Program-made: the position numbers and the translations under genes
Notes under the pieces: generated by a model
What the model saw: the letters and a program-made list of their open reading frames with translations, nothing else
What the model was told of the DNA's origin: nothing
The model's database searches: none
In this document: positions 755-13,697 of the stretch, in pieces
How positions within the stretch are numbered: position 1 is the first letter of the stretch
How the letters are laid out: every line of letters starts with the position of its first letter
NCBI RefSeq assembly: GCF_007164525.1
Contig: NZ_AP019791.1
Location: 1,723,501-1,787,500 of the forward strand
Origin: Rubrobacter xylanophilus
Lineage (GTDB): Bacteria; Actinomycetota; Rubrobacteria; Rubrobacterales; Rubrobacteraceae
Length of the DNA stretch: 64,000 nt
Direction of reading: 5' to 3'

Positions 755-1837
755 ATGGGAGAGACGAGGGATATAACCCGGCTGCCGGAGCTCCTGCGGG
801 AGCTGCCGCCCGGAGAGCGGGCGCTCGCCGGGCGCATCTTCGAGGTCTCCGGTGCCACGGGCCGGCTGGTCCCACCAGAGACGATGCATCCCTGGATAGA
901 ATCGTCCTTCGGGTCGGTGGAGGCAGTGCGCGAGCAGCGGATAGTCCGGGTGACGAACCGCTTTACCCTCGAGGGCACGCTCTTCAACTCCCTGCGGGCC
1001 TCCCGGCCGCTGGACGCGAGGACGGAGACGGACCTCGAGGAGGAGATAGCCGCGACCGAGGGGGATCCCTTCTGCCGTCCCGAGGAGGGCACCCCGGAGA
1101 ACGTCTTCGGCCGGGTCCGCGGCCGGTACGCCACGACCGTGGCCAACATCGCCATGTACGACGCCTATCACGGCGTGATCGTCTTCGACGATCACGACCC
1201 GCTCCACCTGACCCCCGAGAAAGTCTCCGACTACGTCGAGGTGGGGCTGGCGTGGCACCGCCGGGTCCTCGAGACCGATCCGGAGTACCGCTACCTCTTC
1301 CTGATGTGGAACTGCCTGTGGCGCGCTGGGGGCTCGATCATCCACGGTCATGCCCAGGCGGTGGCCACCCGTGGCCCTCACTACCCGAAGGTCGAGCGGC
1401 TCAGGAGGGCGGCCGCGGTCTACCGCGCGGAGCATGGCTCGGACTACTTCGAAGACCTCCTCCGCATCCACGAGTCCCTGGGGCTCTCGGTGCCCGCGAG
1501 CGGAGAGGCGGCGGCCTTCGCCAGCCTCACCCCGATCAAGGAGAAGGAGCTGGTGGTGATCGGTGCCTCTCCGGAGGATGAGGCCCTGAAGCACTCGGTG
1601 GGCGGGCTCCTGGAGCGGTTCGTCCGCAGGCTCGGGGTCGCCTCGTTCAACGTCGCCTTCTGCCTGCCCCCGGCCGGTCCCGCACCGGAGGACTGGAGCG
1701 GCTTCCCGGCGGTGGTCCGGATCGTGGACCGCGGCGATCCCGCCAGCCGCACCTCGGACATCGGGGCGATGGAGCTCTACGCAGCCCCGGTGGTGGCCTC
1801 GGACCCGTTCCGGGTGGCCGAGGCGCTGCGCGGCTAG
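755..1837 (+). CDS. GalT-like HIT-superfamily nucleotidyltransferase
   Basis: A 360-residue protein resembling galactose-1-phosphate uridylyltransferase: long central segment with N-terminal PWIESSFGS/NRFTLEG stretches and the HIT active-site motif HGHAQ at residues 197-201, in which the second His would carry the nucleotidyl intermediate. The length fits the GalT family (about 330-370). Substrate cannot be assigned: no other Leloir gene is adjacent and GalT-like proteins include ADP-sugar phosphorylases. The gene stands alone and its stop shares the CTAG tetramer with the convergent DUF192 gene. Confidence 0.75.
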   Translation: MGETRDITRLPELLRELPPGERALAGRIFEVSGATGRLVPPETMHPWIESSFGSVEAVREQRIVRVTNRFTLEGTLFNSLRASRPLDARTETDLEEEIAATEGDPFCRPEEGTPENVFGRVRGRYATTVANIAMYDAYHGVIVFDDHDPLHLTPEKVSDYVEVGLAWHRRVLETDPEYRYLFLMWNCLWRAGGSIIHGHAQAVATRGPHYPKVERLRRAAAVYRAEHGSDYFEDLLRIHESLGLSVPASGEAAAFASLTPIKEKELVVIGASPEDEALKHSVGGLLERFVRRLGVASFNVAFCLPPAGPAPEDWSGFPAVVRIVDRGDPASRTSDIGAMELYAAPVVASDPFRVAEALRG

Positions 1838-2301
1838 GGCAGCTCCACCGTGTCCCCCACCTCCACCCCGCGCTCCTCGAAGAACCCCCGGTTCACCTCC
1901 AGCGCGTACCGCGCGGGCCTCGCGGAGACGTAGTGCGGGGGGTCGTCGTCGAGGGGCTTCATGTTCTGGATGTCCACGATGCGCCCCTCCGAGTCGATGT
2001 AGGCGATGGAGAGCGGGATGAGGGTGTCCTTCATCCAGAACGAGAGCCTCTGCTCCCGGTCGAAGACGAAGAGCATCCCCCGGTTCTCGCCGAGAGCGGT
2101 GCGGTGCATGAGGCCCCGCCGCTGCTCGGCGGGCTCGTCGGCTATCTCCACCCGGATCCTCACGTCCCCTCCGTCCGCGTGGATGGTGAGCGTCCGCGGC
2201 CCGACTCCGCCTCCGGGGGCGGAGCCACCATCGGGCACCTCTCCGCAGCCGGAGAGCGCCACAAGGAGCAGCAGCATCCCGAGAACCGCCGGGCACCTCA
2301 C
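1834..2301 (-). CDS. DUF192 family lipoprotein
   Basis: A 155-residue secreted protein. Residues 1-18 form a lipoprotein signal ending in lipobox LSGC (Cys19), so it should be membrane-anchored outside the cytoplasm. The rest is the DUF192 (COG1430) fold, recognisable from the RRGLMHRTAL and FWMKDTLIPLSIAYID stretches and the C-terminal YALEVNRGFFEERGVEVGD. The family has no firm function. The GTG start overlaps the stop of the upstream alaX gene (GTGA), so it is the last gene of a PHP-alaX-DUF192 operon. Confidence 0.85.
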   Translation of the reverse strand: MRCPAVLGMLLLLVALSGCGEVPDGGSAPGGGVGPRTLTIHADGGDVRIRVEIADEPAEQRRGLMHRTALGENRGMLFVFDREQRLSFWMKDTLIPLSIAYIDSEGRIVDIQNMKPLDDDPPHYVSARPARYALEVNRGFFEERGVEVGDTVELP

Positions 2302-3008
2302 CGCAGGACGAACTCGATACGCTTGTTCTGGCGGCCCTTGCTCTTGTGGCTCGTGACCTCCATCTCCCCCACCTCACGGGTGTTGGCGACGTGGGTCCCG
2401 CCGTCGGCCTGCGAGTCTATGCCCTCGATCTCGACGACGCGCACCATCCGCACCCGCTCGGGGACCAGGTTGACTTGGGTGCGGATGAGGTCCGGGTTCT
2501 CGAGCGCCTCCTTCCGGGGCAGCTCGTAGACCCTCACCGGGCGCTCTTCGGCGAGCGCCGCGTTGGTGAGCCGCTCTATCTCGCCCACCACCTCCGAAGT
2601 CCACTCCCCGGGGAACGAGAAGTCCATCCTCGCGTGGTCGGAGCGCATCTGACCGCCCGTCACGCGCGCGCCGAAGCGCCGCCAGATCACGCCGGAGAGC
2701 ACGTGCAGCGCCGTGTGGTAGCGCATGTGGGCGTAGCGCCGCTCCCAATCCAGCTTGCCCCTGATCTCCCGCACCGTCTCCGGGATGACGTGGTCGAGGA
2801 CGTGGACGATGTGGCCACCCTCCCGCCGGACGTCCACCACCTCCGCGCGCACCGGCCCCACGCCGAGGGAGCCCCTGTCCGGAGGCTGCCCCCCGCCCCC
2901 GGGGTAGAAGGCGGTGCGGTCGAGGATCACCTCCCGCCCGTCGAGCTGGACGACGCGCGCCTCAAACTCGCGCAGGTAGGAGTCCTTCAGGAACAACTCC
3001 TCCGTCAC
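2298..3008 (-). CDS. alaX: Alanyl-tRNA editing protein (AlaX type)
   Basis: A 236-residue stand-alone homologue of the AlaRS editing domain, expected to hydrolyse Ser/Gly mischarged onto tRNA-Ala. It has the N-terminal AlaX-M-like beta domain (PGGGGQPPDRG), the zinc motif HTALH at residues 98-102 and GGTHV at 203-207. The residue before GGTHV is Asp rather than the Cys that usually completes the zinc site (CGGTHV); I recall this variant in some family members, so activity is probably kept. The GTG start overlaps the PHP-gene stop by GTGA. Confidence 0.88.
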   Translation of the reverse strand: MTEELFLKDSYLREFEARVVQLDGREVILDRTAFYPGGGGQPPDRGSLGVGPVRAEVVDVRREGGHIVHVLDHVIPETVREIRGKLDWERRYAHMRYHTALHVLSGVIWRRFGARVTGGQMRSDHARMDFSFPGEWTSEVVGEIERLTNAALAEERPVRVYELPRKEALENPDLIRTQVNLVPERVRMVRVVEIEGIDSQADGGTHVANTREVGEMEVTSHKSKGRQNKRIEFVLR

Positions 3009-3760
3009 AGCGGCAGGCTCCCCCGCTCCCCGTTCCTGAAGGTCACCACCTCCCGGTAGCCCACCTCACGCACCAGCCTCAGGCTCTCGTCGTAGCCGGC
3101 CCCCACCTGCTCAGGGGCGTGGGCGTCGGAGGAGAGGATTATCGGGACGCCGCGCTCGAAGAACATCTCCAGGAAGGCGCGGGAGGGGTAGATCTCCCCG
3201 ACGGGCTTGCGCAGCCCGGCGGAGTTCACGTCCACCACCACCCCTGCCTCGGCGATCGCCTCGGCCGTCTCCTCCAGCATGGGCGTCACGTCCCGCTCAG
3301 GGAAGCGGCGGAAGATCTTGATGAGGTCAGGGTGCCCGATCACGTCGAAGAGCCCCGAGCGGGCCGCCGCCCGCACGCCCGTGAAGTAGGCATCGTACAG
3401 CTCGTAGGTGTCCCGCCCGTAGATGCCGGCGGCGGGGTCTATGTCTATCTCCTCGCCGTCCACCCGGTGGACGCTCCCGATGACGTAGTCGTAGGGCAGC
3501 GCGGTGGCCACCCGCTCCATCGCCGCCTCATTGCCCGGCACGTAGTCTATCTCTATGCCGAGCCGCAGCTCCACGCCCTTCGACCGCTCCCGAGCCTCCT
3601 GGAAGGCGGCCAGGTCGACCTTCTCCAGGTAGCGGTCGTGCTCCGTGATCCCGAGCTCTCTGATGCCCCTCTCCTCGGCCACCCGGCAGTACTTCAGGAT
3701 GTTCTCCACCGTCATGGGCCGGTCGTCGTGAGCCACGACGTGCAGGTGGTAGTCGATCAA
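3005..3760 (-). CDS. PHP-domain phosphatase, HisK-type histidinol-phosphatase family
   Basis: A 251-residue PHP phosphoesterase. Metal-binding motifs are visible in order: DYHLH (residues 3-7), ITEHD near residue 40, GIEIDY, GSVHRV, FDVIGHPDLIK and ILSSDAHAPEQVG. The order and length match HisK-type histidinol-phosphate phosphatase, but no other his gene lies in the window, so the physiological substrate is uncertain. The TTG start is supported by an upstream GGGAGG ribosome site. It is the first gene of the operon with alaX and the DUF192 lipoprotein. Confidence 0.8.
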   Translation of the reverse strand: MIDYHLHVVAHDDRPMTVENILKYCRVAEERGIRELGITEHDRYLEKVDLAAFQEARERSKGVELRLGIEIDYVPGNEAAMERVATALPYDYVIGSVHRVDGEEIDIDPAAGIYGRDTYELYDAYFTGVRAAARSGLFDVIGHPDLIKIFRRFPERDVTPMLEETAEAIAEAGVVVDVNSAGLRKPVGEIYPSRAFLEMFFERGVPIILSSDAHAPEQVGAGYDESLRLVREVGYREVVTFRNGERGSLPL

Positions 3761-3821: not shown

Positions 3822-4679
3822 TTATCTCGTCGGCCGTCCCTGCCACCGGGCGATGACCCCGTACATCAAGGGGAGGCCGGGCACCCCTTCGGGAGGCGCG
3901 AGACGCCCGCCGCCGACCTCCCTCAACCCGGGCAGCTTCCGCTCCCCGTTGACGTACGGGTACTCACGGAGCTCCAGGATCTGCAACCCGGCCCCAGACA
4001 GAGCGGTGATCACCTCCCCGAGCCCCCAGCGGTACAGGTGGCAGGGATGGGGGTTCCTGAAGCCGCGCACCCCGGGCGAATAGCCGCCCGGGGCGAGACC
4101 CTCCCCGGACTCGCCGACGTAGTCCCCGACGCCCTCCTCCAGCCTCACCCGCTCTCCGCCCGAGGGGTAGGCCCGACGGAGCCTCCAGCCGCCGTCGAGC
4201 ATGTCGGCCAAAGGGTGGAACTCCACCATCACGAAACGCCCTCCCCCAGCGAGCACCCCCGCCACCCCGCGCGCCCAGAGATCCAGGTCGCGCAGCCAGC
4301 ACACCACCCCGTAGGAGCAGAAGACCACGTCGAACCTCTCCCGGACCGCCCCGAGCCACCCGCAGACCTCGGAGCGGACGAAACGGGCCTGCAGGCCGGT
4401 CTTCCGGGAGAGCTCCCGGGCCAGTTCGATCGCCCGGTCGCTCATGTCCACCCCGGTAGCCCGGGCCCCGAGGTTGACCAGGCTCAAGGTGTCGCCCCCG
4501 GCGCTGCACATCAGGTGGGCGACCCTCAAGCCCCGCAGATCCCCGAGCAGCTCCCGCTCCTCGGGGAAGAGGGTCACGCCCCCGCTCCGGAGAAAGCCGG
4601 CGAGGGCGCGGCGGTGGCTCGCATGGGCCTCCGCCGCCGCGTTCCAGGAGCGGCGGTTCTGCTCCAAGATCTCATCCAC
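3822..4679 (-). CDS. Class I SAM-dependent methyltransferase
   Basis: A 285-residue Rossmann methyltransferase: motif I HLMCSAGGDTLSLVNLGA followed by GVDMSDRAIELAREL binds SAM, and VVFCSYGVVCWLRDLD is motif IV. The C-terminal half (GGYSPGVRGFRNPHPCHLYRW, then a YPYVNGE stretch) resembles small-molecule methyltransferases. The frame is open further upstream, but the GTG at 4679 is chosen because it overlaps the stop of the glycosyltransferase gene in GTGGATGA. It is the last gene of the pterin-type operon, so a glycosylated pterin or its precursor is a possible methyl acceptor (inference). Confidence 0.82.
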   Translation of the reverse strand: MDEILEQNRRSWNAAAEAHASHRRALAGFLRSGGVTLFPEERELLGDLRGLRVAHLMCSAGGDTLSLVNLGARATGVDMSDRAIELARELSRKTGLQARFVRSEVCGWLGAVRERFDVVFCSYGVVCWLRDLDLWARGVAGVLAGGGRFVMVEFHPLADMLDGGWRLRRAYPSGGERVRLEEGVGDYVGESGEGLAPGGYSPGVRGFRNPHPCHLYRWGLGEVITALSGAGLQILELREYPYVNGERKLPGLREVGGGRLAPPEGVPGLPLMYGVIARWQGRPTR

Positions 4680-5694
4680 CGCCCGCAGCCTCCCGCAGCA
4701 CCCGGACGAACCCGTCCACGGCATCTCTCCAGGAGGGCAGCTCCCGGGCCCGCCGCCGGGCGGCCCGGGACATGCGGTGCCTGAGGCCGGCGTCCCGAAC
4801 CAGTACGCGGAGGGCCTCCCGGGCGCCGTCCACGTCCCCGGGCTCCACCAGCACGCCCGCTCCGCCGACGATTTCCGGCACGGGCCCCACCCGACAACCG
4901 ACCACCGGAAGCCCCCAGCAGAGGGCCTCGGCGTAGGCCATCCCGTATCCCTCGTAGCGGGAGAGGAGCGCGAAGACGTCCGATCCGGCATAGGCCCGCC
5001 GGAGGACCGCGTCGCTCACCTCTCCGGCCACCCGGATCGAGCCGTCCCGGTCCACCAACCGCCGCACCGCGGCGGCATACCCCGCGTCTGCTCCGGTCTC
5101 CCCCACGAGCACCAGCCGCGCACCCTCAGCTCCCAGCCCGCGCCAGGCCCCGACGAGCTCCAGGATGCCCTTGCGCGGGATCCACTGCCCCACACACAAC
5201 ACCTGAACCGGTCCCCCGCTCTCCGGCGTCTTTTCCGGAGAGAGCCGGTCGCGGCCGGGCGGGACAACCCGAATCCTCCCGGAGGGAACCCCGCGCCGGA
5301 GGAGGATCTCTCGCACGTCACTGCTCACCGCGACGAAGAGGTCCGCGCCGAGCAGGAGGCTCCTCTCGAAGTACTCCTCCCCCGGACCGCCGGAGCCCGC
5401 GACGGAGGGTAGCTCGTGGACCAGGACCACCACCGGCCGCCTCCACCGGTCGAGATGCGGCCCGCAGATCCGCCGGGCGAGGGCGTCCACCACGACCACG
5501 TCGACCCCGGAGACGTCGAAGGAGCGCCCGAAATCCCCGGCCTCCGCGTCCTGCTCCTCGGGCGAAGCGCCGCAGGGCGAGACGTAGCGAACCTCGAAAC
5601 CCGCCGCCCGCAGGCCGGAGACGACGATCCCGTTGTACAGGTGTCCCCCCGTACGGCGCTCCGGGTCTCCCACGGTGACGAACGCGACCCGCAA
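4672..5694 (-). CDS. GT4-family glycosyltransferase
   Basis: A 340-residue GT-B fold enzyme. The N-terminal domain starts MRVAFVTVGDPERRTGGHLYN and the C-terminal donor domain has VLCVGQWIPRKGILEL and the EX7E motif in SRYEGYGMAYAEALCWGLPVVG, typical of GT4 enzymes using NDP-sugars. No membrane segment, so likely cytosolic. The TTG start lies 3 nt after the stop of the PTPS-like gene. Position between a pterin-binding protein and a methyltransferase suggests that it glycosylates a small molecule rather than a polysaccharide (inference). Confidence 0.85.
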   Translation of the reverse strand: MRVAFVTVGDPERRTGGHLYNGIVVSGLRAAGFEVRYVSPCGASPEEQDAEAGDFGRSFDVSGVDVVVVDALARRICGPHLDRWRRPVVVLVHELPSVAGSGGPGEEYFERSLLLGADLFVAVSSDVREILLRRGVPSGRIRVVPPGRDRLSPEKTPESGGPVQVLCVGQWIPRKGILELVGAWRGLGAEGARLVLVGETGADAGYAAAVRRLVDRDGSIRVAGEVSDAVLRRAYAGSDVFALLSRYEGYGMAYAEALCWGLPVVGCRVGPVPEIVGGAGVLVEPGDVDGAREALRVLVRDAGLRHRMSRAARRRARELPSWRDAVDGFVRVLREAAGGG

Positions 5695-5697
5695 GCC

Positions 5698-6075
5698 CTA
5701 CTCCAGCGCCCCCTCGCAGGCGGCGTAGACGTCGGGGTTCTCCCAGATCCGGACGGTCAGCGAGGAAAGCCCCCGGCCCCTGAGGCCCGGCGCGAGGCTC
5801 TCCCAGCAGTGGGAAGCCACGACCTCCGCCGTGGTGTTCGCTCCCGAGAGCCCCGGAACCTCGTCCAGGTTTCGGTAATGCAGCGAGGCGGCGATCCCGT
5901 CCACCGCCTCCTGCAGCGCCCCGATGTCGTAGAGCGTGCCGTCCTCCCTCAGGCGCTCCCCCCGGACTACTACCTCCAGCCGGTAGGTGTGCCCGTGCAG
6001 GCGGCTGGCCGGGCCGAAGTCCCCCACGAGCCGGTGGGCCGCCTCGAAGCTCGTGGCCACGCATACCTCGTACAT
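5698..6075 (-). CDS. PTPS/QueD-family pterin-binding protein with altered catalytic residues
   Basis: A 125-residue T-fold protein of the 6-pyruvoyl-tetrahydropterin synthase/6-carboxytetrahydropterin synthase family. The three zinc His are present (His14 in AAHRL, His27 and His29 in LHGHTY) and so is the pterin-anchoring Glu (Glu112 in VRIWE). Aligned by eye with E. coli QueD, the catalytic Cys is Ala23, and the Asp-His pair of LDHHYLN is His66-Tyr67. It should bind a pterin but is unlikely to run the standard PTPS or QueD reaction. Start ATG 6075 follows GGAGG; the gene sits 8 nt after the dehydrogenase gene. Confidence 0.85.
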   Translation of the reverse strand: MYEVCVATSFEAAHRLVGDFGPASRLHGHTYRLEVVVRGERLREDGTLYDIGALQEAVDGIAASLHYRNLDEVPGLSGANTTAEVVASHCWESLAPGLRGRGLSSLTVRIWENPDVYAACEGALE

Positions 6076-6083
6076 CTCTACGC

Positions 6084-7097
6084 TCAGCCTCCTCCCTGAG
6101 GGTAGGTAAGGATCACCTGCAGCACCTCTGACGGAACCTCGTCCACGAGCCGGTAGGCTTCGGGGGCCCGCTCGAAGGGTATCCGGTGGGTCACCATCTC
6201 CTCCAGCGGCAGGCGCCGGAGCAGGTCGAGGACCACCCGCCTGCGCCTCTCCCTGTCCCAGCGGGCCGAGAGCTCGGGGGCGATGCCGCCCACCTGAGAG
6301 GAGCGGATGCGCACCCGGCCCCGGTGAAAGCGTCCCCCGAGGTCCAGCGTCACGGGCTTGGTCCCGTACCAGGAGGCGACGACCACGGTCCCCTCCCGGC
6401 GGACGCACCCGAGAGCCTCCGGGAGCGCCGCCGCCGAGCCGCTGGCCTCCACGACCACGTCGGCCCCTCTCCCCGCGACCGCCTCCCCCACGGCACCGGG
6501 CTCCACGGCCGCCGAAGCCCCGAAACGCAGAGCGAGCTCCCGGCGCCGCTCCAGCGGGTCCACCGCAAGCAGCGACCCCACCCCGCAGAGCCCGAGCAGC
6601 CGGAGGATCAGCAGCCCTACCACGCCGCAGCCGAAGACGACGACGTCCTCCCCGAGCCGGGGGGCGGCGTCGTGGACGACGCCGAGCGCGGTCTCCAGGT
6701 TGGCGAAGAAGGTCCCCCGCTCGGGGGGGATCCCGTCGGGAAGCCGTACCGCGAGGTGTGCCGGGACGGTGAAGCGGTCCTGGTGGGGATGGTGGACGAA
6801 GACGGTGTCGCCGGGAGAGAGCTCCCGCACCCGCTCTCCGGCCCGCTCCACGCGGCCCGAGGCGGCGTACCCGTACTTCACGGGCAGGGCGTAGCTTCCG
6901 GAGAGGGTCGGGAGGTCCAGCGGGAGGTCGGCCGGGGCCTCGCCGCGGTAGACGAGCATCTCGGTGCCGGGGCTTATGGCGGAGGCCACGGTCCTGACCG
7001 TGATCTCCTCCGGACCGGGCGGATCGAGCCTCTCGTACCGGAGCTCGGCCCGGCGGGGCGCGGGGAACCACACGGCGCGGGCCTCAGGCGGGATCAT
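6084..7097 (-). CDS. MDR-superfamily dehydrogenase (zinc alcohol dehydrogenase-like)
   Basis: A 337-residue medium-chain dehydrogenase/reductase. GroES-like N-domain (residues about 1-140) with GYAASGRVERAGERVRELSPGDTVF, then a Rossmann domain with VVVFGCGVVGLLILRLL. The usual CxxCxxC structural zinc cluster and the standard GHE motif are absent, so it may be non-zinc or use another metal site. It lies between the RibD-type gene (overlap of 14 nt) and the PTPS-like gene, and could reduce or oxidise a pterin side chain (inference). Confidence 0.8.
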   Translation of the reverse strand: MIPPEARAVWFPAPRRAELRYERLDPPGPEEITVRTVASAISPGTEMLVYRGEAPADLPLDLPTLSGSYALPVKYGYAASGRVERAGERVRELSPGDTVFVHHPHQDRFTVPAHLAVRLPDGIPPERGTFFANLETALGVVHDAAPRLGEDVVVFGCGVVGLLILRLLGLCGVGSLLAVDPLERRRELALRFGASAAVEPGAVGEAVAGRGADVVVEASGSAAALPEALGCVRREGTVVVASWYGTKPVTLDLGGRFHRGRVRIRSSQVGGIAPELSARWDRERRRRVVLDLLRRLPLEEMVTHRIPFERAPEAYRLVDEVPSEVLQVILTYPQGGG

Positions 7098-7773
7098 CGG
7101 GGTAGTAGATCTCGCCCTCCACCAGGATGTCCGTCCCGCAGACGGTGACCGAGGGCTCCTCCAGAAGCAGAGCTCCGCCGAGGTCGTGGATCCCGAGCTC
7201 GCCCACCGCCTCTATCCCGCACCCCAGCAGCTTGGGGGCGACGCAGACCGCCAGCCGGTCCGCGAGGTGCTCGCGCAGGAAAGAGGTGATGAGGGCGGCC
7301 CCACCCTCGACCATCACCGAGCGGATCCCCCGCTCCCGGAGGGCGACGAGCAGCGCCCGCAGGTCCACCCTTCCCTCCGCGTTCTCCGGAAGCCTGAGGA
7401 CGTGGGCTCCGAGCCGCTCGGCCCGGGCGCGCCTCTCCCGCGGCGCCCGACCCGTCACCGCCAGAACCGTGCGCCCGGCCGCGCCGTCGGAGAGCACCGC
7501 CGCCGAGGGCGGGGTTCTGAGGGTACTGTCCACGACCACCCGCAAAGGGTTCTTACCGGGAGCGAGCCTCACCGTCAGCCGCGGGTCGTCCCTGCAGACG
7601 GTGCCGACCCCCACCATCACCGCGTCGTGGCGGGCCCGCAGCTCGTGGGCGCGGACGAGAGAGCTCTTGCAGCTGATCCACTGCGAGCTTCCGGTGGCGG
7701 TCGCCAGCCGGCCGTCGAGGGTCTGGGCGTAGCTGAGGGTCACCGTCGGCAGGCGGTTCGGCTCCTCTCCCAT
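7084..7773 (-). CDS. RibD C-terminal/dihydrofolate-reductase-like reductase
   Basis: A 229-residue protein consisting only of the RibD reductase domain: TLSYAQTLDGRLATATGSSQWIS, then MVGVGTVCRDDPRLTVRL, VVVDSTLRTP and the C-terminal MVEGGAALITSFL. The deaminase domain of bifunctional RibD is missing. Such enzymes reduce ribose side chains or pterin/pyrimidine rings with NADPH. I chose ATG 7773 because homology begins just after it; no clear ribosome site precedes it. It is the first gene of the five-gene operon and is divergent from folB, 72 bp away. Confidence 0.82.
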   Translation of the reverse strand: MGEEPNRLPTVTLSYAQTLDGRLATATGSSQWISCKSSLVRAHELRARHDAVMVGVGTVCRDDPRLTVRLAPGKNPLRVVVDSTLRTPPSAAVLSDGAAGRTVLAVTGRAPRERRARAERLGAHVLRLPENAEGRVDLRALLVALRERGIRSVMVEGGAALITSFLREHLADRLAVCVAPKLLGCGIEAVGELGIHDLGGALLLEEPSVTVCGTDILVEGEIYYPDDPA

Positions 7774-7845
7774 GTGCGTTCTTATCAGCTTACAGGGCCG
7801 GGGGATTCCGGGCAAAGATTATTACGCGGACGTATACTGGATTGG

Positions 7846-8226
7846 ATGAACCGGAACACAGAAGAAGACAGGATCCTCCTCGAGGGGATGACCTTCTTCG
7901 GTCGCCACGGCACCCTGCGGGCCGAACGAGAGCTGGGACAGCCCTTCGTGGTCGACGTGGAGCTGAGGCTGGACCTGCGCCCCGCCGGGCTCTCGGACGA
8001 CCTCTCCAAGACCGTGGACTACTCCGAGGTACACCGGCTGGCCCGGCGGATCGTGGAGGGGGAGCCGGTGAACCTCACCGAGACGGTGGCGGAGAGGATC
8101 GCCGCGAAGGTTCTGGAGGAGCACCCCGCGGTGGAGGCGGTGCGGGTGAAGGTGAGCAAACCGCACGTCCGACTGGAGGGTACGGTGCTCGCCGGCTCGG
8201 CGGTGGAGATCGTACGCCGCCGGTAG
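7846..8226 (+). CDS. folB: Dihydroneopterin aldolase
   Basis: A 126-residue FolB: ILLEGMTFFGRHGTLRAERELGQPFVVDVEL at the N terminus, KTVDYSEV in the middle and the C-terminal VKVSKPHVRLEGTV, all typical of dihydroneopterin aldolase/epimerase, which cuts 7,8-dihydroneopterin to 6-hydroxymethyl-dihydropterin. No ribosome site; TATACT at 7833-7838 ends 7 nt before the ATG, suggesting a leaderless mRNA. Its divergent pairing with a pterin-type operon, away from other folate genes, is notable. Confidence 0.92.
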   Translation: MNRNTEEDRILLEGMTFFGRHGTLRAERELGQPFVVDVELRLDLRPAGLSDDLSKTVDYSEVHRLARRIVEGEPVNLTETVAERIAAKVLEEHPAVEAVRVKVSKPHVRLEGTVLAGSAVEIVRRR

Positions 8227-8265: not shown

Positions 8266-9168
8266 GTGCGTTCTGCCGCCCCCCAGCCTTCGGACGGCCT
8301 TCGGGCGCCGGGGCTGCCAGATCCCACCCCGGCGGAGAACGCCGCTCGCGTAAAGCAGCTGACCGACATCTGCGCGGCGGACCTCGTCGAAGCCTTCGGG
8401 GTGGGTCCCGGGACTGGCGGCCGCAGGCTCCTCGAGCGTCTCGCGCGGCCACTGGTGCGAGGCACGGCCCGCAAGATAGCGCTCTACGACGCCATCGTGG
8501 GGGAGGCGGGGCTCGGTGCGGGGGGCTCCTGGGCGATCTCCCACATGGCCCGGCGCTTCGAGGTCTCGAGCTCCGGAAACGTCCCGCCGGAGGGACCGCT
8601 GCTGATCGTCTCGAACCATCCCGGGCTCGCCGACGCCGTGGCCCTGTTCGCCGCCATCCCCCGGCGGGACCTGCGGGTGGTGGCCGCCTGGCGACCGTTT
8701 CTCGACGCCCTGCCGAACACGGCGGAGCGCCTGCTCACCCTCCCGGAGAACGGTGGAAGGGTGGCTCTCATCCGGACCGCCGCCAGGCACCTGCGCTCTG
8801 GAGGGGCGCTTCTGACCTTCCCGGCGGGAAGGATCGAACCAGACCCGGCCCTGTTCCCCGGGGAGGCCCGTGCGCTGAGGGACTGGTCGGAGAGCGTGGA
8901 GCTCTTCGCCCGGCTGGTCCCCGGCCTGGTGGTGGTGCCGGCGGTGGTGAGCGGGGTCGTCTCCCGCGCCGCCCTCCGGAACCCGCTCGTTCTGGTGCGG
9001 CGCAGGGAAGAGGACCGCCGGTGGCTCGCCGCCGCGCTGCAGATGCTGCTGCCGCCGCTGCGGAGGGTGGAGACCCGGGTCAGCTTCGGCCGGCCGCTGC
9101 GCGCGCGGGACGGCGTGATGGCGGGGGTGCTGGCCGAAACCCGGAGGATGATGCGGTCCGGCCCTTAG
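8266..9168 (+). CDS. PlsC-like acyltransferase
   Basis: A 300-residue protein with a lysophospholipid acyltransferase core: HX4D motif in SNHPGLAD (His118, Asp123), and a later FPAGRIEPDPALFPGEARAL block corresponding to the substrate-binding FPEG-like motif. No clear membrane span. The first 100 residues are a helical extension. GTG start: TATACA at 8252-8257 ends 8 nt upstream, so a leaderless transcript is likely. The acyl acceptor is unknown. The stop overlaps the convergent betaine-binding-protein gene by TTAG. Confidence 0.78.
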   Translation: MRSAAPQPSDGLRAPGLPDPTPAENAARVKQLTDICAADLVEAFGVGPGTGGRRLLERLARPLVRGTARKIALYDAIVGEAGLGAGGSWAISHMARRFEVSSSGNVPPEGPLLIVSNHPGLADAVALFAAIPRRDLRVVAAWRPFLDALPNTAERLLTLPENGGRVALIRTAARHLRSGGALLTFPAGRIEPDPALFPGEARALRDWSESVELFARLVPGLVVVPAVVSGVVSRAALRNPLVLVRRREEDRRWLAAALQMLLPPLRRVETRVSFGRPLRARDGVMAGVLAETRRMMRSGP

Positions 9169-10085
9169 GAACCGACGGCCCGAGCGCCGGCGTTCCGCAG
9201 CCAGGTGGAGCGCAGATCCCGGTTGGCCGCGAGCCACCTCCGGGCTCCCTCCTCGGGGCCGCCGGCCTCCCGGATGGCCAGCTGGACGTCCTCCACCTGC
9301 GACTGGGTGAGGACGATGGTGTCTATCAGAGCGTGGGCGAGCGGCTGTTGCTCCTCCATGCCGCGGCGGGTGATGATCCGGATCTCAGCCGGGAGCGTCA
9401 GGCTTCCCAGCGCGTACCCGGGATCTTCGAGGTAGGTGATCTCATACTCCCGATTCATCCAGTGCGGCGCCCAGGCCAGAAACACGAACGGCTCCCTCCG
9501 GCTGTACAGACGCCCGACCTCCTCCAGCATCGCGGCGGCGGATCCGTACTCCTCCACCTCGAGCCCCCAACGGGAGAGCGCCTCCTCCGGCAGCGGGCCG
9601 AGGGCGGAGGCGCCAGGGGCCAGGACCAGAGCCCTCTTCACTCCGGAGCCCTCTATCTCGTCGACCCGGTTTATCCCCACGTAGGATGGCACCGCGAGGC
9701 TCGAACGCGTCACCCCCACGACCCAGGAGTTGAGCAGGTCCAGCTCGTCGAGTCTGCCGTCGAGAGGGTTCTCCCTGCCCTCACCGGCCCGGTCGAGCAG
9801 CTCCTCGTGCACCGGCACCCAGACGTCGCCGAAGACGTCGTAGCGTCCCGAGGCCACCCCGTCGATGGCCTCTGACTGACCCACCCGGTGCACCCGGACC
9901 TCGTAGCCGAGATCCTCCAGAAGCGCCCCGGTCACGCCCACGATCGCCGCGTCTTCGGGCCAGCCGGTGTAGGCGATGTCGATCCGGTCGTCCTGCGAGC
10001 GGGCGGCCACCTGGGAGGAGGCGCCACAGCCGGCCGCCAGCAACACGACCGCGACCAGCAGGACCGGGAGGATCTTCGACCGCAT
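9165..10085 (-). CDS. Glycine betaine-type ABC transporter substrate-binding lipoprotein (second copy)
   Basis: A 306-residue OpuAC/ProX-family lipoprotein: signal with LLAAGC (Cys20), IAYTGWPEDAAIVGVTGALLEDLGYEV, and the ligand region FLAWAPHWMNREYEITYLEDPGY that matches the paralogue upstream. Identity with the 10225-11148 protein looks moderate, so ligand range may differ (choline, betaine, proline betaine or another osmolyte). A 139-nt gap separates it from the first binding-protein gene, so it could have its own promoter. Confidence 0.85.
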   Translation of the reverse strand: MRSKILPVLLVAVVLLAAGCGASSQVAARSQDDRIDIAYTGWPEDAAIVGVTGALLEDLGYEVRVHRVGQSEAIDGVASGRYDVFGDVWVPVHEELLDRAGEGRENPLDGRLDELDLLNSWVVGVTRSSLAVPSYVGINRVDEIEGSGVKRALVLAPGASALGPLPEEALSRWGLEVEEYGSAAAMLEEVGRLYSRREPFVFLAWAPHWMNREYEITYLEDPGYALGSLTLPAEIRIITRRGMEEQQPLAHALIDTIVLTQSQVEDVQLAIREAGGPEEGARRWLAANRDLRSTWLRNAGARAVGS

Positions 10086-10224
10086 CAGCCGGAGCTCTCC
10101 CCCGGCGAGGAACCGGATTTATCTCCAGCAAACACAACAGGCGTACATTTTAAGCCCCTTGGGCCCGCTTTGCGGCTCGCCCTACCGCGGGGGGAGATCC
10201 CCGAGTCCGGAGAAACCCGCGCCC

Positions 10225-11148
10225 TCAGGAGGAGGAGGACTGCCGGGCCTCTCTCGCCGCCTCTATCCAGGGCTGCACCACGTCGCGGTTGTCCTCGAGC
10301 CAGTTCCTGACCCCCTTCACCGGCTCGTCCTCTCCGGCGCGCTTGATCTCGAGCTCCAGCGAGTTGAGCTGCTCCTCGTTGAGCGAGACGGCCTTGAGGA
10401 ACGCATAGGCCACCGGATCCTCCTCCGAGAGCTCCCCGTTGACGACGGTGGTGATCCTGGAGGAGTCGTTGAACTTGCCCTGGGCGTCCTTGGGATCCTT
10501 GAGGTAGACGATGTCGTAGACCTCGTTCATCCAGTGCGGCGACCAGGCCAGGAACAGGATGGGCTCTTCGTTGCTCGCCGCCTCCTCCACCGCCGCCAGC
10601 ATCGCGGCCGTGCTGGACTCCACCAGCCTGAAGTCGTCCAGGTTGTACTCCTTGAAGACCACGTTGCGGATCCGGGGGTGGAAGGAGGCCCCGGGCTCTA
10701 TGCCGACGATCTCGTTGGTCCCCGCCCGTTCCAGCTCGGTGAGGCTGTCTATGTTCATGTAGTCGAGCGCGGCGATGCCGTACTTGGTCTCCCCCTTGTA
10801 CCAGGGATCGAGCACCTCGACGTCGTCCTCGACCTGATCCAGGTAGTTGCGGTTGTTGGGGAGCCAGACGTCCTGGAAGGCGTCGAGGTCCCCGGTGGCG
10901 ACCCCCTGGAACAGCGGCCCCAGGTCGAGCGTCTGCAGCTCCACCCGGTCGTAGCCGAGATCCTCCTCCAGCAGCACCTTGGTGAGGTTGGAGACGGCCA
11001 CGTTCTCGGTCCAGCCTATGGTCCCCAGGGTGAGCTCCCCGCCCTCCGCGGAGGAGCCACCCCCCGCACCACCGGAGCAGCCCACGGCCGCCAGCGCCGC
11101 GGCCGCGGCGAAGAACATCGCAAACAGCGTCTTGCGAATCACCATCAC
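10225..11148 (-). CDS. opuAC: Glycine betaine-type ABC transporter substrate-binding lipoprotein
   Basis: A 307-residue lipoprotein with lipobox AAVGC (Cys24) and the OpuAC fold: LGTIGWTENVAVSNLTKVLLEEDLGYD, VWLPNNRNYLDQVEDD and FLAWSPHWMNEVYDIVYLKDP. The Trp residues in these segments fit a cation-pi cage for quaternary ammonium ligands. It lies 44 nt after the permease gene and completes the importer with the ATPase and permease, allowing uptake of compatible solutes under salt or heat stress. Confidence 0.9.
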   Translation of the reverse strand: MMVIRKTLFAMFFAAAAALAAVGCSGGAGGGSSAEGGELTLGTIGWTENVAVSNLTKVLLEEDLGYDRVELQTLDLGPLFQGVATGDLDAFQDVWLPNNRNYLDQVEDDVEVLDPWYKGETKYGIAALDYMNIDSLTELERAGTNEIVGIEPGASFHPRIRNVVFKEYNLDDFRLVESSTAAMLAAVEEAASNEEPILFLAWSPHWMNEVYDIVYLKDPKDAQGKFNDSSRITTVVNGELSEEDPVAYAFLKAVSLNEEQLNSLELEIKRAGEDEPVKGVRNWLEDNRDVVQPWIEAAREARQSSSS

Positions 11149-11192
11149 ACTCCTTCTCTCGTCTCAGCTCGCAAACAGGGAGAGAACGCCCG

Positions 11193-12074
11193 TCAGGCGG
11201 TCTTCATCCCCGAGCCCGCCCCCCGCGCGCTCCCCCGGATGTTCCGGGTAATCCTGTCCAGCAGGATCGCTATGATCACGATCCCAAGCCCTCCCTTGAA
11301 GCTCTTGCCCACGTCGAGCTGCGAGAGCCCCTGGTAGACCTCCTCGCCGAGCCCCCCGGCCCCGATGAGCGCCGCTATGACCACCATGGAGAGGGAGAGC
11401 ATGATCACCTGGTTGACCCCCGCCATGATCGTGGGCATCGCCAGCGGCAGCTCCACTTTCCTCAAGGTCTGCCAACCCGTGGCCCCGAAGGCGCTCGCCG
11501 CCTCCACCGTCTCCTTCGAGACCTGCTGCAGCCCCAGCATCGTCAGCCGCACCGCCGGCGGCATCGCAAAGATGACCACCGCAACCAGCGCCGGCGCAGC
11601 CCCAAGCCCCAGCAGCACGATCGCCGGCACCAGATAGACGAAGGCCGGCATGGTCTGCATGAAGTCCAGAACCGGCCGCAGCACGGTCTCGACACCCCTG
11701 GACTTGGCCGCCACTATCCCCAAGGGGATGCCCACCACGAGCGCCACGGCCGTAGAGGCGATGACCAGCGCCAGCGTGAGCATCGCGTCCTCCCACAACC
11801 CGAGCCCCTGGAGGAGCAAGAGCCCCGCCACCGTAAGGAGCGCTATGCGCCAGTTGGAGACCAGCCACGCGAGGACCGCGAAAACGACGACCATCACCAG
11901 CGGAGGCAGCGCGGTGAGCCCCGTCTCCAGCACGTCTACGAGGAGGTTCAGAGAACCCTCCAGGGCATCGAAGAAGCCCTCGAAGGTCTCGGAGGTGATG
12001 AAATCCACGAATGACTCGATCCAGCTCTCGAGCGGGATCTCCGGAACCTGCTGCAGGTGGGCCAGTGCCATCAC
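11193..12074 (-). CDS. opuAB: Glycine betaine/proline ABC transporter permease (ProW/OpuAB type)
   Basis: A 293-residue membrane protein with several hydrophobic spans and the ProW-type core: VLDFMQTMPAFVYLVPAIVLLGLG followed by VIFAMPPAVRLTMLGLQQV, and an ABC permease coupling loop EAASAFGATGWQTLRKVELPLAMPTIMAGVNQ. The ATG start overlaps the end of the ATPase gene by 4 nt. It would form the transmembrane pore of the importer. Confidence 0.93.
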   Translation of the reverse strand: MMALAHLQQVPEIPLESWIESFVDFITSETFEGFFDALEGSLNLLVDVLETGLTALPPLVMVVVFAVLAWLVSNWRIALLTVAGLLLLQGLGLWEDAMLTLALVIASTAVALVVGIPLGIVAAKSRGVETVLRPVLDFMQTMPAFVYLVPAIVLLGLGAAPALVAVVIFAMPPAVRLTMLGLQQVSKETVEAASAFGATGWQTLRKVELPLAMPTIMAGVNQVIMLSLSMVVIAALIGAGGLGEEVYQGLSQLDVGKSFKGGLGIVIIAILLDRITRNIRGSARGAGSGMKTA

Positions 12075-13336
12075 CGCTCCCTCTCCCGCACGGCCCCGTC
12101 CGCCTCCTGCGGCTCCTCCACCTCAGAGCCGGCGGTCGTGAGCCCGGCGATGAGCGCCCCACGCACCACGATGCCCTCGAGCCGCCCCCGCTCACCTACC
12201 ACCGCAACCGGCAGCTTGCGCTCCACGAACAAGGGCAGAACCTCCCTGAGCGGAGTATCCGGCCGCACGCTGGGCACCGAGCGGTCTATGGCCCCGGACA
12301 GAGAGCGCTCCCCGCTCTCCAAAATCCTGGCCACCTCCTCCGCCTCGCAGAGCCCCACCAGCCGCCGGTCGCTGTCCACCACGAAGATGCTGGACATCCC
12401 GGCCCGCTTCATCCGCCGCAGAACCACCCGCGGCCCCTCCGCCTCGTAGGCCACCTCCTTGGGGTCGACCATGACCGCCTCGGCGTGACGCACCTTGGCG
12501 TAGTCCACGTCCTCTATGAAGCGCTCGACGTAGCCGTCGGCCGGAGCGGTGAGGATCTCCTCGGGGCTGCCGACCTGCACGATCTCGCCGTCGCGCATGA
12601 TCGCCACCCGGTGGCCGAGCCTCAGAGCCTCGTCCAGGTCGTGGGTGACGAAGACCACCGTGCGCCTGACCTCCCCCTGGATGTCCAGAAAGAGGTTCTG
12701 CATGTCCCGCCTTATGAGCGGATCCAGCGCCGAGAAGGGCTCGTCCATCAGGAGGATCTCCTGCCCCGTGGCAAGCGCCCGCGCAAGCCCCACCCGTTGC
12801 TTCATCCCCCCGGAGAGCTCGCTTATCTGCTTGTTCCCCTGCCCTCCGAGCCCCACCATCTCAAGCGCCTCTTCCCCCCGCTTTCTGCGCTCTCCGGTAG
12901 AGACCCCCTGGATCTCGAGCCCGAAGGTTATGTTGTCCAGCACGCTGCGGTTGGGCAGAAGCCCAAAGTGCTGGAAGACCATCCCCATCTTCTGGCGCCG
13001 GATCTCGCGCACCCGCCGGCCCGATAGCCTGGAGATGGACTCGCCCGCAAGGTAGACCTCCCCCTCGGTCGGCTCGATGAGCCGGTTTATGAGCCTGAGC
13101 AGCGTAGACTTGCCGCTGCCCGAAAGCCCTATGATGACGAAGATCTCCCCCTCGTGCACCTCAAAGGAAGCATCGAAGACCCCGATGGTCGAGCCGGTCT
13201 CCTTCTCGACCTCGGCCTTGCTCCTGCCCGAACGCCGCAGTTCGAGCGCCCTGCGCCCATGCCGCCCGAAGACCCTGCAGAGCCTCTGGGCCCGGATGAC
13301 ACCCCCCCCGGATCCTGAGGCTACGTGCTCTTTCAC
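12071..13336 (-). CDS. opuAA: Glycine betaine/proline ABC transporter ATPase with CBS pair
   Basis: A 421-residue ATPase: Walker A GLSGSGKST, Q-loop MGMVFQHFGLLPNRSV, signature LSGGMKQRVGLARAL, Walker B ILLMDEPFSALDP, H-loop FVTHD. Residues about 290-400 form two CBS repeats (SSIFVVDSDRRLVGL and LPVAVVGERGRLEGIV), which sense ionic strength or nucleotides in OpuA-type transporters. The frame is open to 13609, but the GTG at 13336 is chosen because AAGGGG sits 6 nt upstream and the preceding codons have no ABC homology. First gene of the importer operon. Confidence 0.92.
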   Translation of the reverse strand: MKEHVASGSGGGVIRAQRLCRVFGRHGRRALELRRSGRSKAEVEKETGSTIGVFDASFEVHEGEIFVIIGLSGSGKSTLLRLINRLIEPTEGEVYLAGESISRLSGRRVREIRRQKMGMVFQHFGLLPNRSVLDNITFGLEIQGVSTGERRKRGEEALEMVGLGGQGNKQISELSGGMKQRVGLARALATGQEILLMDEPFSALDPLIRRDMQNLFLDIQGEVRRTVVFVTHDLDEALRLGHRVAIMRDGEIVQVGSPEEILTAPADGYVERFIEDVDYAKVRHAEAVMVDPKEVAYEAEGPRVVLRRMKRAGMSSIFVVDSDRRLVGLCEAEEVARILESGERSLSGAIDRSVPSVRPDTPLREVLPLFVERKLPVAVVGERGRLEGIVVRGALIAGLTTAGSEVEEPQEADGAVRERER

Positions 13337-13571
13337 GGCATCCCCTTCCCGGGACAGCCGCCAACCGAGAGCAGAGTTGCATCCTGCCGGTCGGGAATCG
13401 CAAAAGGCCCAGCCCGCAAAACAGGCTCGGAGGCGTTCATGTAAGGTTCGATGGCTTCTCCCTTGTTCGCCTGCTACTCCGGCCGCGCCACAGCGGCGCG
13501 ACATCCCCAGATTTTCTGGTCGCGGGCAAAACCAGCACCCGCTCCCGCAGTCGTATGCCTCTTGCTTGGAA
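13337..13571 (-). other. Long structured 5' leader of the betaine importer operon
   Basis: If transcription starts a few bases after the TATAAT at 13578-13583, the importer mRNA has a leader of about 235 nt. On the minus strand it can form CCAGA-TCTGG (13507-13519) and CGCGCC-GGCGCG (13484-13500) hairpins. I could not match it to any riboswitch class I know (TPP, cobalamin, glycine, SAM, ydaO). No convincing gene is present. Confidence 0.4.
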
Positions 13572-13577
13572 TACTCA

Positions 13578-13605
13578 ATTATAAGGGGGGCCCCGACCCG
13601 TTCAA
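13578..13605 (-). promoter_or_regulatory. Promoter of the betaine importer operon
   Basis: On the minus strand TTGAAC (13600-13605) and a perfect TATAAT (13578-13583) are separated by 16 bp, close to the consensus for the housekeeping sigma factor. It points toward opuAA and is the best promoter match seen between the tRNA-Arg gene and the operon. Confidence 0.6.
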
Positions 13606-13697
13606 CCACTCCAGCGTTAAGGTATGTTTAGGGTGGTTCGCTCGGCCCACCGCTCCGGTAGAAGATCGGCGGTCTTTGAGATAAACTTTTTTGGCGT

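Follow-up and report, generated by a model that had tools for sequence, protein, structure and literature searches.

The window analyzed here is a 64,000-nucleotide stretch of Rubrobacter xylanophilus DNA (contig NZ_AP019791.1, positions 1,723,501 to 1,787,500 of the forward strand), and our subject is a cassette of five minus-strand genes which, with the divergent folB gene, may serve the synthesis of a decorated pterin. The leading gene (7084..7773) encodes a stand-alone RibD C-terminal (pyrimidine) reductase (RibD_C) of 229 amino acids, which matches PF01872 (E 5.4e-54, 183 bits) and carries no deaminase domain. It is followed by genes for a polyol-type dehydrogenase of the medium-chain dehydrogenase/reductase (MDR) family (6084..7097, 337 amino acids; PF00107/PF08240, with ADH_zinc_N at 56 bits), a 125-amino-acid protein with the fold of 6-pyruvoyltetrahydropterin synthase (PTPS) (5698..6075; PF01242, 109 bits), which is of the SCO6650/PTPS-IV kind and lacks the catalytic Cys, a GT4-type glycosyltransferase (4672..5694, 340 amino acids, TTG start; PF13692 (Glyco_trans_1_4), E 1.4e-22, 81 bits; PF00534, E 6.4e-22), and a class I S-adenosylmethionine-dependent methyltransferase (3822..4679, 285 amino acids, GTG start; PF13649 (Methyltransf_25), 42 bits). 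The RibD_C and MDR genes overlap by 14 nucleotides and the GT4 and methyltransferase genes by 8, and gaps of 8 and 3 nucleotides separate the PTPS gene from the MDR and GT4 genes, respectively. On the opposite strand, folB (dihydroneopterin aldolase; 7846..8226, plus; PF02152) begins 72 bp from the start of the RibD_C gene at 7773 (intergenic region 7774..7845). The original prediction of a five-gene operon, with these domains, tight spacing and a 72-bp distance to folB, is borne out by the coordinates. A consensus search of the 72-bp gap gave no sigma-70-like promoter, which is uninformative for R. xylanophilus.

The Rubrobacter genome is a single 3.02-Mb contig with the Rubrobacteraceae as closest relatives, and statements about it rest on family searches. 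The only match to FolB in this genome is the copy beside the operon, and the only match to PF01242 is the operon copy. The one FolE lies away from the cassette and HPPK is also encoded elsewhere, so that folB does not stand in a folate operon with FolE/FolK. GTP cyclohydrolase II (GCHII) is not encoded beside the cassette in the window itself; a fused housekeeping RibD (genome position 653058) and RibA, nearby at 654980, are both distant from it. In addition to the cassette reductase and the housekeeping RibD, the genome has three more RibD_C-family matches (G000:C1:117952, 714333 and 1472953).

Conservation and spread of the cassette

At least 581 relatives of the cassette dehydrogenase were recovered when an MDR alignment was run against 84,980 species genomes. 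We read 86 loci, comprising 80 loci, five plasmid loci and the window, which were picked by MDR similarity, so that counts among them are not frequencies among genomes. The PTPS-fold protein is encoded at 77 of these, GT4 at 78, RibD_C at 67, and a methyltransferase of either type at 59; GCHII occurs at 35 and the archaeal GTP cyclohydrolase III (GCH III) at five, one or the other thus being present at 40. Bacterial cassettes were found in Actinomycetota, Chloroflexota, Thermomicrobiota, Pseudomonadota, Thermodesulfobacteriota, Myxococcota, Acidobacteriota and Binatota, and archaeal ones in haloarchaea and methanogens. Automatic clustering of neighbors was noisy, being swamped by antisense open reading frames, and was used solely for profile-confirmed families.

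Close relatives of the PTPS-fold protein (64-85% identity) are present in most Rubrobacteraceae searched, and at the 23 Rubrobacteraceae loci, the window being one, the order RibD-MDR-PTPS-GT-MT is kept for the genes present, except at one spacer locus and at some loci cut by contig ends. The original prediction had proposed a comparison across genomes and named separate occurrence of the homologues as evidence against a common pathway; the outcome is the opposite, as the five genes stay together, along with folB, and the set recurs in distant phyla. Nor is the set an actinobacterial one, since it occurs in archaea and in several phyla of bacteria. Three main groups make up the MDR tree, and the Rubrobacter sequences fall within that of Chloroflexota/Thermomicrobiota, a placement which suggests transfer between these phyla.

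Some loci depart from the common content. Four from Chloroflexota (L045, L046, L051 and L052) encode MDR, GT4, and GCHII and/or RibD_C without a PTPS homologue; some of the four carry two GT4 genes, and L045 starts within its RibD_C gene. The draft Rubrobacter assembly LC3_2 has two cassettes on different contigs (L037 and L042), of which the second includes a GCHII gene. Five Pseudomonadota loci (L033, L100, L101, L105 and L107) have a gene for cytochrome b within or close to the cassette.

The PTPS-fold protein

The best match of the PTPS-fold protein in the PDB is SCO6650 (3d7j), the nearest solved structure, which fits its predicted membership in the PTPS-IV subfamily. In the window, the AHR, HGH and WE motifs are kept, that is, the zinc His triad and the pterin-anchoring Glu. 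The catalytic Cys (CxxxHGH or CxxxxxHGH) is replaced by Ala in the window and by Ala or Glu in all 77 aligned homologues, and the Asp-His catalytic pair reads His-Tyr in the window. Since the catalytic Cys of PTPS and QueD is missing, the cassette protein is unlikely to be a PTPS, and identification as a true PTPS or QueD was rejected. The homologues fall into three active-site classes. In two of them the Cys site holds Ala; one of these keeps all three His (Rubrobacter, Chloroflexia and Thermomicrobiota), and the other has Ala in place of the third (Proteobacteria, Streptomyces and Acidobacteria). The remaining class has Glu at that site (Anaerolineae, haloarchaea, sulfate reducers and Methylococcaceae). 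These classes match the MDR groups in outline.

PTPS-IV (COG0720/IPR007115, AGeNNT cluster 62) was described in 2017 as having PF00925 (GCHII) and PF01872 (RibD_C) in its neighborhood, and its members were said to "preferentially contain" an FGPAQ signature (PMC5445326). Both partners recur here, RibD_C in the window and GCHII at the 35 loci given above; the window motif is FGPAS, which shares FGPA with the signature, and FGPAQ is found in the Proteobacteria/Streptomyces branch. A 2016 review tied PTPS-IV to F420 as unpublished data (PMC5041015).

The dehydrogenase, methyltransferase and glycosyltransferase

The AlphaFold model of the MDR protein (pLDDT 93.9) has mostly polyol and alcohol dehydrogenases as its top structural neighbors (Z 32-35, tied; about 19-30% identity to the listed structures), and that of the methyltransferase (pLDDT 83.9) has toxoflavin N-methyltransferase ToxA among its neighbors (Z about 19, tied with many others), the nearest folds of MDR and METHYLTRANSFERASE being ties inside large superfamilies, which name no substrate. 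Residues S42, G44, E46, Y77, H105, E135 and H258 of the MDR protein are invariant among 44 cassette homologues. Its likeness to polyol and alcohol dehydrogenases would suit oxidation of a ribityl chain to the 2'-ketone, and it is a 2'-ketone beside a free 5-amino group that closes the pterin ring in the reaction of GTP cyclohydrolase I (GCH I). BchC (TIGR01202) was its best NCBIfam match, and this identity was rejected, at 82 bits against a cut-off of 291 bits. The sequences nearest to the GT4 protein in the PDB are GT4 enzymes of the MshA and BshA types.

The cyclohydrolase partner and the reductase

The cassette reductase scored higher with TIGR01508, the archaeal 2,5-diamino-6-ribosylaminopyrimidinone-phosphate reductase (162.5 bits, below the cut-off of 186.45), than with TIGR00326, RibD (128.9 bits, also below its cut-off). 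Its best PDB matches are 6p8c and 2azn, with a weak match to 1cz3. In nine loci, GCHII and RibD_C are fused into a single protein beside the MDR gene. Two reduced sets (L078 and L094) consist of GCHII, RibD_C and MDR, with no profile match for PTPS, GT4 or methyltransferase, and in L094 GCHII and RibD_C are separate genes. Locus L095 resembles them, but its contig stops just after the MDR gene. In one member of the Rubrobacteraceae (G033), GCHII stands beside the cassette. FolE, sought with a single query, was not found at any locus. To judge from these neighborhoods, the partner cyclohydrolase is II (or the archaeal III), not I, at odds with the GCH I/PTPS route implied by the original prediction; that route is further weakened by several cassette genomes in which no match to FolE, FolE2 or HPPK was found.

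At the Streptomyces locus, the GCHII has Met in place of the conserved Tyr (KLRAM), a change associated with production of the formylated intermediate, and the adjacent gene is of the creatininase family, to which the archaeal deformylase belongs. A FAPy-type GCHII throughout the cassette was considered and rejected; Met is found only in the Streptomyces sequence, and the other aligned GCHIIs keep Tyr.

FolB and the link to pterins

The folB product keeps the Tyr, Glu and Lys active-site residues in alignment. The genes run in the order MT-FolB-RibD-MDR-PTPS-GT on one strand in Oscillochloris, Chloroploca and two genomes of Roseiflexaceae, and the cassette copy is the sole FolB match in all of these. 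The two Roseiflexaceae genomes (L057/L058) gave no match to FolE, FolE2 or HPPK in searches whose control genomes were positive, yet both retain the cassette FolB. Of 26 genomes of the family Roseiflexaceae, 17 gave no FolE match, so its absence is not merely a gap in two drafts. The known substrates of FolB are dihydropterins. The simplest reading is that the Roseiflexaceae FolB serves the cassette pathway, and that a dihydropterin would there be made without GCH I. The idea of a glycosylated, methylated pterin put forward in the original prediction is accordingly supported in outline, and reinforced by FolB; the genes travel with folB, and the annotated activities all suit such a product. 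What is not supported is the precursor route.

Possible lipid attachment

Following folB by about 40 nucleotides on the same strand is a gene for a PlsC-like acyltransferase (8266..9168, plus; PF01553), which is likewise conserved with the cassette. Such an acyltransferase is encoded at 17 of the 86 loci and a CDP-alcohol phosphatidyltransferase at 33, never both (Fisher p 8e-5); when only the 55 loci flanked by 5 kb or more on both sides are counted, the figures are 15, 26 and 0 (p 6.5e-6), in an exclusion that was spotted and tested on the same data by a test that ignores relatedness. Each of the three MDR groups includes loci with the acyltransferase, and two of them include loci with the phosphatidyltransferase. 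As both families act on lipids, this distribution suggests that they may be two alternative ways of anchoring the product. Membrane proteins of the LPG-synthase type are encoded at seven of the 86 loci.

Other flanking genes

A PHP-family (histidinol-phosphatase-like) phosphoesterase gene (3005..3760, minus) lies 61 nucleotides after the methyltransferase gene. It adjoins the cassette in Rubrobacteraceae only, and its membership in the cassette, with a role in phosphate removal, is possible but unproven. Genes for the PHP phosphoesterase and for AlaX-like and DUF192-like proteins (1834-3760) hold their place after the cassette in Rubrobacteraceae. Beyond the acyltransferase, 9165-13609 reads, from open reading frame translations alone, as a glycine betaine/choline-type ABC transporter, with two substrate-binding proteins, a permease, and an ATPase with CBS domains.

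Discussion

We propose, with a probability of about 0.5, that the cassette builds a decorated reduced pterin from a precursor supplied by GCHII, not GCH I. In the scheme that we infer from gene content, gene order, fusions, phylogenetic spread and active-site residues, GCHII would convert GTP to 2,5-diamino-6-(5-phosphoribosylamino)pyrimidin-4-one, and GCH III to its formylated form; this enzyme would be the housekeeping RibA in Rubrobacter, a cassette-encoded or reductase-fused GCHII elsewhere, and GCH III in haloarchaea. RibD_C would then reduce the ribosyl to a ribityl chain to give 2,5-diamino-ribitylamino-pyrimidinone phosphate, the 2-amino group being retained because no deaminase is present. 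In the manner of sorbitol-type dehydrogenases acting on polyols, the MDR protein would oxidize the 2'-OH of this ribityl phosphate to a ketone, and the ketone and the 5-amino group would condense, possibly in the PTPS-fold protein, to 7,8-dihydroneopterin 3'-phosphate. In the Rubrobacter/Chloroflexia branch, FolB may trim or epimerize the side chain. Addition of a sugar by GT4 and of a methyl group by the methyltransferase would follow, and a lipid might be attached last, by the PlsC-like acyltransferase here and by the CDP-alcohol phosphatidyltransferase elsewhere.

Several points weigh against this proposal. GCH I followed by phosphate removal would yield the proposed pterin more directly, and the detour of reducing and then oxidizing the chain needs a reason. 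Rubrobacter has FolE, and its only RibA is fused, so that the precursor could be shared or derived from GCH I. The four Chloroflexota loci and the reduced sets lack the PTPS-fold protein, which therefore cannot be needed for ring closure in every case. Given the kinship of RibD_C with dihydrofolate reductases, the reductase might act after the pterin has formed. Genes missing from draft genomes are suggestive only.

In one alternative, the pterin would be the dihydroneopterin triphosphate made by FolE, and the role of the cassette would be confined to its decoration, as in cyanopterin-like pathways, with RibD_C as pterin reductase and the MDR protein as side-chain oxidoreductase, followed by GT4 and the methyltransferase. 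The presence of FolE in Rubrobacter, the adjoining folB and the kinship of the reductase with dihydrofolate reductase (weak match to 1cz3) favor such a route. However, the cyclohydrolase that repeatedly accompanies the cassette, and that occurs fused to RibD_C, is GCH II/III, not I, and several cassette genomes gave no match to FolE or FolE2; we regard this route as unlikely. Less probable again is that the product is no pterin at all but a 2,5-diaminopyrimidine or a deazaflavin-like compound bearing decorations, in which case the PTPS fold would bind the 2-amino-4-oxo-pyrimidine. GCHII and RibD_C make a pyrimidine of this kind, PTPS-IV lacks the PTPS catalytic residues, and the F420 remark in the review (PMC5041015) points the same way. 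Against it, FolB is encoded within the operon and persists in genomes that gave no match to folate genes, and no F420-type family appeared among recurrent neighbors in the noisy clustering. A loose set tied to riboflavin or folate supply and making up no single pathway, as the riboflavin-type GCHII and RibD_C and the folate gene folB might suggest, is very improbable, given that order and content, including GT4, methyltransferase and MDR, are kept across bacteria and archaea and that Rubrobacter has RibA and RibD elsewhere.

The proposed GCHII-based pathway resembles several known systems in part. Among them are SCO6650 (3d7j) and its neighborhood in Streptomyces; a Streptomyces cassette (L032) comprises CDP-alcohol phosphatidyltransferase, MDR, PTPS, GT4, methyltransferase, creatininase and GCHII; in contrast, Rubrobacter keeps the three zinc His, has FolB and PlsC-like partners, and has neither a cassette GCHII nor a creatininase. 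SCO6650 reportedly does not catalyze the PTPS reaction, and SCO6655 is said to be a GCHII homologue with an altered product. Toxoflavin biosynthesis in Burkholderia uses a GCHII-type precursor and RibD-like and N-methyltransferase steps, and ToxA, among the closest folds to the cassette methyltransferase, methylates a GCHII-derived bicyclic compound; that pathway is not known to include a GT4, PTPS or polyol dehydrogenase, and the chemistry of its ring is different. The cassette dehydrogenase has its MDR fold in common with sorbitol-type polyol dehydrogenases and with BchC. As with the pterin glycosides of cyanobacteria and Chlorobium (cyanopterin; CtPGT, PMC5683033), a GTP-derived pterin would here be glycosylated. 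Pathways of the cyanopterin type proceed through GCH I, PTPS and a reductase to tetrahydrobiopterin, whereas the cassette has no PTPS with intact catalytic residues and no FolE partner, and adds MDR, the methyltransferase and possible lipid enzymes. The original prediction knew of no described pathway, but parts of the neighborhood had been noted, including SCO6650 and the GCHII and RibD_C partners of PTPS-IV; the PTPS-IV passages of that account name no MDR-GT4-methyltransferase set, lipid enzymes, FolB link or route (PMC5445326). Our literature search found no characterized product, no lipid-linked pterin and no characterized pathway for the Streptomyces cluster. Our corrections and additions to the original prediction are a different precursor route, a wider spread and a possible lipid step.

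A bolder extension, which we offer only tentatively, is a bacterial and archaeal pathway, independent of GCH I, to a glycosylated, methylated pterin that would be anchored in the membrane by acylation or, elsewhere, by phosphatidyl transfer and might act as a lipid-soluble redox or light-sensing cofactor. The cassette points to an uncharacterized metabolite pathway in hundreds of genomes, from Rubrobacter to haloarchaea, and gives a testable role to PTPS-fold proteins whose usual annotation is 6-carboxytetrahydropterin synthase. If the proposed route is true, it would be a second way of making the pterin ring from GTP.

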